Source: Synechococcus sp. Nb3U1 (GTDB lineage: Bacteria; Cyanobacteriota; Cyanobacteriia; Thermostichales; Thermostichaceae). Taken from it: a stretch of 64,000 nucleotides of DNA. The DNA lies in assembly GCF_021533835.1 (NCBI RefSeq), contig NZ_JAKFYQ010000002.1:372001-436000 (forward strand), given 5' to 3'. Below are positions 10,488 through 14,492 of the stretch, in pieces. Under the pieces are notes generated by a model that was not told where the DNA came from, did no database searches, and saw nothing but the letters and a program-made list of their open reading frames with translations. How positions within the stretch are numbered: position 1 is the stretch's first letter; the number at the start of each line of letters is the position of its first letter. The translations under genes and the position numbers were made by a program.

Positions 10488-11840
10488 TTAGCCCGCAGTC
10501 ACCGAAACATCTTCTATGCGCAAAGCCGGAAAAGCAGTGCTGCCATTAAAAATGGTCACTTCTTGTGAAATTGCCGAGATATTCCGCAAACAGTCATAGA
10601 GGTTGCCGGCGATCGTGGTTTCCAAAATCGGACGTTTTTCCCCGCCTTTCACCAAAAACCCCCCTTTCACCACCCCAGAAAAATCGCCGGTGATCGGGTT
10701 GCTGCTGCCGGAGAGGCGCGTGACGATGATGCCCCGCTCCACAGCATACAGCTCAGATAAGGGGGTTTTGCCCGCAGCCACACTCAAACAGGCCGGCCCT
10801 ACCCCTGGTAAGCTCCCTGCCCCTCCCGTGGCATGACCATTGGAGGGGATCCCAGCGGCGCGAGATTCGTAGCTGTTGTAGAGGAAGTTACAGAGGATGC
10901 CCTCATTCACCAGGGGGGTAATTTGGCGCGGGATACCTTCCCGGTCAAACGGCTCGATCCGGTAACCGGGTAGCCCCAAGCCCTCCGAGACCACTGTCAG
11001 CAACGGGCTGGCGATCAGGGATCCCATTTTTTGGGCCAGGGGGCTTTTGCCTTTGCGCACCGCATCTGCCCCCAACACTGCGATCAAATCCCCCAGCAGC
11101 TCATCCACCGAATCGGGCGGGAGCAAAATGGTGCCGCGAAAACTCTCCCCCTGAGTGGCCCCCAGCGCCCCGATACACTTGTTGACAAACCGATCGAAGG
11201 CCCGCTCCAGAGCCGGGATCAGATCCGCCCGTGTCTGCACGCTGTCGCCATCGTAGGCAAAGCTTCCCACCTCCTCCCCATCAATGGCCATACCAAACAG
11301 GGATCCCCCCCCTTCGACGCTGTGGTAGTTGGCGCGGATCCCGGTGGAGGAGGCAATGGCCAGAGTATCTTCTTCAACGCTGATAGAGCCACTGTCGATG
11401 TTGATGCGGCTATCTTGGGCGCGGACTCGCTCTAGGAGTTCGGATCCCAGTTGAGTAAGGGTGGCAGCATCCAGATCCAGCAAACCGGCATCAAGCGGAA
11501 AAGGAACCGATGGCAGAGGCTGGGGATCCGGCAACCCATTCAGGGGATCCGCCGGGGAGGCTTTGGCCAGAGCCACCGCTTCTGCGGCGATATCCGCCAA
11601 TTCCTCCGGGCGATTGGAGGTGGCAAAGCCCAGCCTACCTCCGCAAAAAACCCGCACACCGAATAGGGTTTCGCTGCTGGTACGGGCTAGGTTCAGGTCA
11701 TTTTTCTCGAAGGTGACTTCTGTTTCCCGGCCTGAGTTGGCAAACACTTCCGCTTGGTCGGCCCCAGCAGCCAAGGCCTTTTGTACACCCTGCTCACAGA
11801 GATCCAGCAGGTTTTCGGGGGAGACGAGAGCACTGGCCAT
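10488..11840 (-). CDS. pmbA: TldE/PmbA-family metalloprotease subunit
   Basis: TldD and TldE (PmbA) form a heterodimeric zinc protease that processes peptides such as microcins, CcdA and modified ribosomal peptides. The sequence has the PmbA-type pattern: KALAAGADQAEVFANSG at the N-terminus, the loop IASSTGIRANYHS, LPGYRIEPFDREGIP and the C-terminal RLSGSSNPITGDFSG and LRNISAIS segments. I start at ATG 11840 (450 residues) because the open frame beyond it shows no family resemblance. Only one member is in this window; its TldD partner must be elsewhere. Confidence 0.87.
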   Translation of the reverse strand: MASALVSPENLLDLCEQGVQKALAAGADQAEVFANSGRETEVTFEKNDLNLARTSSETLFGVRVFCGGRLGFATSNRPEELADIAAEAVALAKASPADPLNGLPDPQPLPSVPFPLDAGLLDLDAATLTQLGSELLERVRAQDSRINIDSGSISVEEDTLAIASSTGIRANYHSVEGGGSLFGMAIDGEEVGSFAYDGDSVQTRADLIPALERAFDRFVNKCIGALGATQGESFRGTILLPPDSVDELLGDLIAVLGADAVRKGKSPLAQKMGSLIASPLLTVVSEGLGLPGYRIEPFDREGIPRQITPLVNEGILCNFLYNSYESRAAGIPSNGHATGGAGSLPGVGPACLSVAAGKTPLSELYAVERGIIVTRLSGSSNPITGDFSGVVKGGFLVKGGEKRPILETTIAGNLYDCLRNISAISQEVTIFNGSTAFPALRIEDVSVTAG

Positions 11841-11960
11841 AGGAGCACCGCATCCAGAAGAGCATCTCCTATTATCGGCTATGCCTTCGCTGAAGCCGGG
11901 ATCCTCACAGTTGGACATGTATGAGCTATGCCACTATTCTCTTAGCTTTAAAAAAGCGCT

Positions 11961-12067
11961 TACAGCCTTTTCTGACTTCATGAACGACACAAGGTCAAGA
12001 AGAAATTCTTGTCGGACAAAGGGTGGGCCTGTATCGGCTGTAGGATGTATCGCTGGAAAAGGCTGTA
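11961..12067. repeat. MITE-like element 1 (107 bp)
   Basis: The element begins TACAGCCTTTTC and ends GAAAAGGCTGTA, perfect 12-base terminal inverted repeats that include a TA at each outer edge, as expected for IS630/Tc1-mariner type insertions. It has no coding capacity. It sits directly after the M14 carboxypeptidase stop codon and pairs with element 2 at 13823. Confidence 0.75.
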
Positions 12068-12074
12068 CCTAGAT

Positions 12075-13778
12075 TCAGTCCCCCAACACCAACTGAGTAC
12101 GCACCGTTCCAGCTCGCTCCGCTCGGGCAACAATTTCTAGGCAACTGCCCTCAGGCGCTTGGATCACCCATTCCACCTTGCGGCGATAGTCAATGCCCGT
12201 ACTAGCAGACATAATCTCCCCGTAGGCTTTGTTGGAGCGGCCCTCCAGATGCCCGATCTCCTGTTGCTGGGATCCCATCACTAATCTGGATCCCTCGGGC
12301 AACTCAAGACTGACTTGAATCGGGCGAACGGCTTTGCGTTCCAGCGCTTTTTGGCTGGTATAGGTGGGCAAGAATCCTTGATTTTCGCATTGCACCACCA
12401 CCCGAAATAAAGACTGGGATGCGTCGGCAGTTTTTCCGAGGGGGTGAACTTCGCTGCGAGCTAGTGCTAACCGCGGCGACATGAGCGCATGGGCAATGGC
12501 AAAACGACAGTGCTTATCACATAGCTCCGGCAACAATTCTGGGGGCACATTTTGCCAAACCGCTTTGTAATCCCAACCGCCAATTTCCACCAAGCCCAAC
12601 TGTGGGTGTTCAAACGGCTGCCAATCGATGAAGCCTCGTCCCCCCAAAACCTGATCATTCCACTTCAACATCTTCAAATCATCTGCTTCCGGGTGCCAGC
12701 GAAACCACTGGATGAAATCTTTCTTCTCCACCCCCGCTTCGGTGGGCAGATCCCACAGTTCTGTGGTGAAGCCATACCAACCAAAGGCATCGTAGGCATA
12801 GCTATTGAAGTTACCGTGGCTAACTTTTTTCGGATGATAGCGGAAGTGATGGTAACCGGAAATGGTGGGGTAGCCGGTGATCTCGGTGGCTTTTTCGCCA
12901 ATCAGCTTGTGAATATCCAGATCTTCGGGCGGGTAATGCTCATCTGGATGGGTGGCGTAGGCGCGAATGTGAACGGCAGAAGAAGTGTGATAGGTAACAA
13001 AGCCGTTGATATTGCGGTGGGTACGTAGAAATTCCCCGATGGCCCGGGTTTCCGGCTCGGAATAGGGAAAGTCCCCCGCTCCCACCTGCTCATTTTCCGG
13101 GGCCCATTCGTGCGGGTAATTGCGGTTGAAATCCAACCCTTCAAGGGTCGGAGCCATCGGTAGATCGTAGCCATCAAACTCCCGAATCAGCCCTTCGGTC
13201 ATCAAATGGTAGTAGGTGCCGCCGAATTCCTCCGGATCCCGCCGTACCAAAATCCTGGGATCCAACGACGAAACCTTCCAGGCCCCGCAGGGATCCACTT
13301 TGCGCATTTGCAAAATCTTGCCATCCCCATTCACATCCTCCGGGTAAAGACCGGGTTGCGGATCCGGCTGTGGATAGGCACGGGTGCCCGAACGCAACCG
13401 ATAGGGGGTAGTTAGATATTTTTCCGAGCCATCGACGGCGATACGAGGCAGCACATAGATGGTATAGCCATCCAAGAGGCGGGTTGCCCGTTCATCTTGA
13501 CCGTAGTGGGTGAGTAGATAGTAGATGTCGTAAAGGGCAACCGCGGATCCCGTCACTTCTCCGGCATGAGTGTTGGCATCGAGCCAATAGGCGGGTTTTT
13601 CCAGGGCTGATCCCGTATTCTGTTGGGTCAGGGTAGCCAAAACGATATCCCGCCCCTCGTAGCTCCGCCCGATCACCTCCCATTGCATCAAATCGGGATA
13701 GGCTGCCACCATTTGCTGAAGAAAGTCAAGGATCTCAGCATGGGTGAAAAAATGGCTGAAGTCAAAAGGGGCAACAGA
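12075..13778 (-). CDS. M14-family zinc carboxypeptidase
   Basis: This 567-residue protein has an N-terminal M14 peptidase domain. The zinc ligands are visible in DANTHAGEVTGS (His72 and Glu75, the HxxE motif) and in GFVTYHTSSAVHIR (third histidine); YGFTTELWDLP carries the catalytic glutamate. Tyr- and Arg-containing substrate-site strings NRNYPHEWAPENEQ also fit. The last 200 residues form a beta-rich C-terminal domain seen in large bacterial M14 enzymes. No signal peptide is evident. I chose ATG 13778 because homologous sequence begins there; the frame opens at 13820. The gene is bracketed by two related MITE-like elements, one just beyond each end, which suggests it moved or was duplicated with them. 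Confidence 0.85.
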   Translation of the reverse strand, partial: SVAPFDFSHFFTHAEILDFLQQMVAAYPDLMQWEVIGRSYEGRDIVLATLTQQNTGSALEKPAYWLDANTHAGEVTGSAVALYDIYYLLTHYGQDERATRLLDGYTIYVLPRIAVDGSEKYLTTPYRLRSGTRAYPQPDPQPGLYPEDVNGDGKILQMRKVDPCGAWKVSSLDPRILVRRDPEEFGGTYYHLMTEGLIREFDGYDLPMAPTLEGLDFNRNYPHEWAPENEQVGAGDFPYSEPETRAIGEFLRTHRNINGFVTYHTSSAVHIRAYATHPDEHYPPEDLDIHKLIGEKATEITGYPTISGYHHFRYHPKKVSHGNFNSYAYDAFGWYGFTTELWDLPTEAGVEKKDFIQWFRWHPEADDLKMLKWNDQVLGGRGFIDWQPFEHPQLGLVEIGGWDYKAVWQNVPPELLPELCDKHCRFAIAHALMSPRLALARSEVHPLGKTADASQSLFRVVVQCENQGFLPTYTSQKALERKAVRPIQVSLELPEGSRLVMGSQQQEIGHLEGRSNKAYGEIMSASTGIDYRRKVEWVIQAPEGSCLEIVARAERAGTVRTQLVLGD

Positions 13779-13822
13779 CATGCGAGGGATCCCGTATCCA
13801 CAAGGGACATTCTGCACCACTT

Positions 13823-13928
13823 TACAGCCTTTTCCAGCGTTATCTGATACAGCAGATTAGGTCAATCCCTTGCTCCATAGGGTTTTTTGCCTAGCTCAAG
13901 GGCCTGTGTAAAGTCGGAAAAGGCTGTA
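13823..13928. repeat. MITE-like element 2 (106 bp), inverted relative to element 1
   Basis: It has the same 12-base ends TACAGCCTTTTC and GAAAAGGCTGTA. Its reverse complement matches element 1 next to both ends (CYGACTT after the left end, CGCTGGAAAAGG at the right end), so the two are homologous and lie in opposite orientation 1.86 kb apart, around the M14 gene. Confidence 0.75.
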
Positions 13929-14012: not shown

Positions 14013-14468
14013 TCAAGGGGTCGGGCTGGGGAACCCATTGGGAGAAGGGCTGGGGAAGGGACTGGGGCTGGGGGATCCTGTCGGAGAGGGGCTGGGACTG
14101 GGCGTTGGCAGAGGCGTGGCCACAATGCGGATCACCCGTTCTCCGGCAGAATGAGGAAACTGAGTCGGGTTCACCAACAGCAGGGATCCAAACCCAGAAA
14201 TTTGGTTATCTTCCTGGCGGGTACCCCCCGGATCAATGCGGATGCGATCCCCAATTTGGAAACCGACAATGCTGGAAGTGGGCAGACGATTGACTCCAGC
14301 GGGGATGGACTGATTAATAAACGTTTCGCCAGGGGAAGAAGGAGGAACCGTGACGGAGCGGCTGCTACTACCACACCCCACCGTAATCGCAGGTAGCAAC
14401 ATCAGAAGTGCTCCCAGCACAAAGCTCACTGTCCAGGTCAACCAAGACCGACGATGTTGACGATTCAT
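14013..14468 (-). CDS. Putative lipoprotein with Pro/Ser-rich tail
   Basis: The 151-residue product starts with MNRQHRRSW, a hydrophobic helix and the lipobox ITVGC with Cys32, so it is probably exported and lipid-anchored. The middle (residues about 35-115) contains VGFQIGDRIRIDPGG, a small beta-type domain of the hedgehog/intein-like or SH3-like look seen in other exported proteins (function not known). The last 40 residues repeat the pattern SPSPSP with Thr, Gly and Phe, a flexible wall-type linker. I chose ATG 14468 because the lipobox signal starts there; the open frame begins 24 bases earlier. Nothing in the neighbourhood indicates a role. Confidence 0.65.
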   Translation of the reverse strand: MNRQHRRSWLTWTVSFVLGALLMLLPAITVGCGSSSRSVTVPPSSPGETFINQSIPAGVNRLPTSSIVGFQIGDRIRIDPGGTRQEDNQISGFGSLLLVNPTQFPHSAGERVIRIVATPLPTPSPSPSPTGSPSPSPFPSPSPNGFPSPTP

Positions 14469-14492
14469 AACCACCCCACCAAAACAACACAC

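Follow-up and report, generated by a model that had tools for sequence, protein, structure and literature searches.

Two IS630-type MITEs on either side of an M14 carboxypeptidase gene are most likely independent insertions of a high-copy family

Nezha is a cyanobacterial MITE that was reportedly described by Zhou et al. in 2008 (cited in PMC10969869). Like the MITEs reported here, it is small, non-autonomous and bounded by terminal inverted repeats (TIRs), a likeness in general features. The cyanobacterial IS630 elements (NF033545; DDE_3, PF13358) share with our MITEs identical TACAGCCTTTTCC ends at TA and a further TACA at about +26. However, these IS630 elements are coding and about 1030 bp long, whereas the MITEs are non-coding and about 107 bp long, and homology is established for the ends alone. 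In Acinetobacter, MITEs flank integrons and form mobile units that recur around different cargo, as reviewed in PMC10969869. Our locus resembles these units by having two MITEs around a gene, but the Acinetobacter units are recurrent and carry varied cargo, whereas the pair described below is single, has chance-level spacing and surrounds a gene that is already in place in relatives.

The window (i.e., the whole stretch of 64,000 nt analyzed) contains an intact M14 zinc carboxypeptidase-like gene (PF00246; ORF 12075..13820, (−) strand, with a likely ATG start near 13780) between two short elements. Element 1 (11961..12067, (−) strand) is a 107-bp member of subfamily A with 12-bp TIRs and TA edges, and element 2 (13823..13928, (+) strand) is a 106-bp member of subfamily B whose ends equal the 12 bp of element 1. 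Both carry the perfect inverted ends TACAGCCTTTTC/GAAAAGGCTGTA with TA at each edge, and the four exact 12-bp ends in the 64-kb window all derive from these two elements. Subterminal sequence is also related, with 54 nt at 72% and 18 nt at 94% between element 1 and inverted element 2. Element 1 matches the reversed A consensus (95%) and element 2 the forward B consensus (98%); thus, their opposite orientation holds, and since they fall into separate subfamilies, they do not represent a single element that was inverted. An earlier, sequence-only reading of this locus had described the sizes, perfect ends, TA edges, homologous subterminal sequence and opposite orientation of the two elements, all of which we confirmed. 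Both elements are short and non-coding with perfect TIRs, as is typical of MITEs, and occupy intergenic gaps within a run of same-strand genes, with a PmbA/TldD-type gene (10488..11918, (−) strand) downstream of element 1 and a small ORF (14013..14492, (−) strand) upstream of element 2. Similar copies of a 16-nt motif, ACCAACTGAGTA[CG]GCA, adjoin both elements. We rejected this motif as a sign of a larger shared unit; it is also found upstream of M14 in the closest relative (G005), where the MITE is missing, and therefore lies outside the elements proper.

The sequence-only reading had suggested searching the genome for the 12-bp ends. We found 119 exact occurrences (65 + 54), compared with 0 + 0 for a reversed control, which excludes chance. 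DNA searches of the same genome yielded 40 matches for element 1 and 29 for element 2 (the two lists overlap), and a total of about 89 elements and remnants were located, giving the dispersed, multiple copies characteristic of MITEs. Specifically, subfamily A comprises 22 near-full copies (median 94% to the consensus) and subfamily B 29 copies (median 95%), with 71% identity between the two consensus sequences. TA is present at both edges in 30 of the 44 copies for which edges could be measured, and in about a third it is missing on one or both sides, which could reflect decay or looser targeting. The closest pair in the genome (L122; C1:1503941-1504228) consists of an A-type and a B-type element whose starts are about 170 bp apart. 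Outside this genome, a search of 29 relatives returned no B-type match, and the single short match to element 1 among the sampled relatives was in the congener G005, at a site that holds a related, diverged 118-bp element with TACAGCTTTTCC ends. No published description of this family was recognized in the literature as far as our search reached into it. The finding is well supported but ordinary: the family is new, its kind is known, and it has about 90 copies and remnants in this single cyanobacterial genome, tied to IS630 through their ends.

The evidence for this tie comes from a search for the 13-mer TACAGCCTTTTCC across 291 genomes of the class, which revealed its presence in 61 genomes, with many copies in a few. 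In another cyanobacterium (G100), exact, facing copies of TACAGCCTTTTCC with TA edges bound a 1034-bp IS that encloses two ORFs with IS630 HTH and DDE domains, so the MITEs have exact 13-bp ends in common with an autonomous IS630. In comparison, IS630 elements of 1020 bp in the congener G001 have the ends TACAGCCTTTT and TACAGCCTGTT beside TA. The second TACA at about +26 is common to the IS ends of G100 and G001 and to one end of each MITE, while the subterminal sequence at the right end of the MITEs (CGACTTC...) was not seen in the IS elements found. A further cyanobacterium (G019, loci L173-L177) has many copies of an IS-like left end with TACAGCCTTTTCC, followed by an ORF start that by eye resembles an IS630 transposase; the inner parts of these copies read N. 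The many copies, the TA at their edges and the existence of an IS630 with the same 13-bp ends support the proposal of the sequence-only reading that the two elements are MITEs with IS630/mariner-like ends, and an IS with the same terminal repeats, which it had advised looking for, exists in G100, outside the genome under study.

That reading was also right that the window holds no partner transposase, and we found none in the rest of the genome either. The genome's own IS630 copies (both DDE_3 matches, the only two) were rejected as partners on account of their unrelated ends, and a third HTH_32 match is not framed by matching ends. No IS with MITE-type ends was found in the assembly, whose four contigs at 99.9% completeness leave a small chance of a missed partner; hence, the MITEs look orphaned. 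From these comparisons of ends, we infer that the family is derived from IS630 and that this assembly lacks its autonomous element.

Relatives indicate how the two elements came to surround M14. In G005, M14 is 95% identical and the upstream flank is the same, including the small ORF, and a single TA takes the place of element 2 (CTTA-CCGCC in G005 versus TTTA-element 2-TATCGCC in the window). In G002 (contig CALFBB010000028), M14 adjoins pmbA with no element 1 between them. Each element is, therefore, missing from a relative in which M14 is in place. For element 1, divergence of the flank in G002 and its rearrangement in G005 obscure the exact target. Other MITE sites look empty or nearly so in relatives but are too diverged for the target to be read, so that the element 2 site is the sole clean TA empty site counted. 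Target duplication is thus seen in the TA flanks of 30 of the 44 copies and in this empty site. The sequence-only reading would have been refuted by ends unique to the two sites together with a block fixed in all relatives with no empty sites; for its MITE part this is not the case, and that part stands.

Its further proposal, that the pair acts as a composite unit, does not. In such a unit, two of the 12-bp ends, the outermost or another pair, would be used together and the 1968-bp block with M14 would move as one transposon. The ends are identical and properly oriented, and MITE-flanked cargo has precedents, e.g., the Acinetobacter integrons (reviewed in PMC10969869). However, M14 retains one or the other neighbor in element-free relatives, and G005 has M14 in place with element 2 missing over TA, which already contradicts joint movement. 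We found no second copy of the 11961-13928 block, only an M14 paralogue elsewhere in the genome (C2:539298-540968, L091) that is 68% identical to the window M14 and is matched by a G005 counterpart (C11). The two elements belong to different subfamilies, and their spacing is as expected by chance: 5 neighboring MITE pairs lie within 1862 bp, compared with 4.2 expected for random positions (P = 0.42). Nowhere, then, was the block seen to move or to be absent as one unit, and we consider its mobility highly improbable.

With M14 in place without each element and pair spacing at chance level, two independent insertions are the simplest account. We, therefore, conclude, with a probability of roughly 0.9, that the pair around M14 represents coincidental independent insertions of a high-copy, non-autonomous, IS630-derived MITE family that has apparently lost its parent, and that the pair does not move M14. 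The copy number, the ends, the TA edges and the one TA-only empty site are observed; transposition in trans is our inference, in which a transposase would have recognized the common ends (CAGCCTTTTCC, one of them with the second TACA at about +26), and each copy would have inserted at a TA and duplicated it. The autonomous parent appears to have been lost from the genome, and the family is, therefore, probably immobile now.

The two elements might instead have been retained for regulation, e.g., as transcribed hairpins that separate M14 from its neighbors, and their intergenic location in a same-strand gene run would suit such a role. Both also fold better than shuffled sequences (z −2.3 to −4.6), although TIRs give such folds in any case. 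Within the elements, promoter and terminator consensus sequences were not found above chance, an Rfam search returned zero matches, and G005 has the same gene but lacks element 2 upstream of it. A regulatory role thus seems improbable.

Compatible with independent insertion, and adding to it, is the idea that MITE copies serve as rearrangement points, with recombination or aberrant transposition having made the break beside M14. In a synteny comparison covering about 1.2 Mb of G005, colinearity was lost at the element in 11 of 19 testable MITE sites, compared with 2-7 of about 30 control points at the same loci, a contrast that is inflated because the control points are mostly inside genes and the MITEs mostly intergenic. 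In G005, the junction adjoining M14 maps to two separate MITE sites, L001 and L033, in the genome of the window. However, this was the only reciprocal break between two MITE sites among those compared with G005, and recombination between MITEs, seen in one case only, was rejected as a general explanation for the breaks. Moreover, G002 retains the M14-pmbA neighborhood, so the change beside M14 more probably took place in the lineage of G005, where no MITE lies at that position. We regard a role of the MITEs in this break as tentative and rather doubtful. It is also unlikely, in our estimation, that a lineage-specific MITE burst with no surviving autonomous element left copies that mark, and may even produce, a large proportion of the breakpoints at which this genome was rearranged. 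Should the link to synteny breaks withstand an unbiased control, it would inform how gene order is lost in such genomes. At one other MITE site (L022; C1:909718), about 570 bp separate the flanks in G005 (C19:5172-5743), and this extra DNA reads, by eye, like a small two-gene toxin-antitoxin module.
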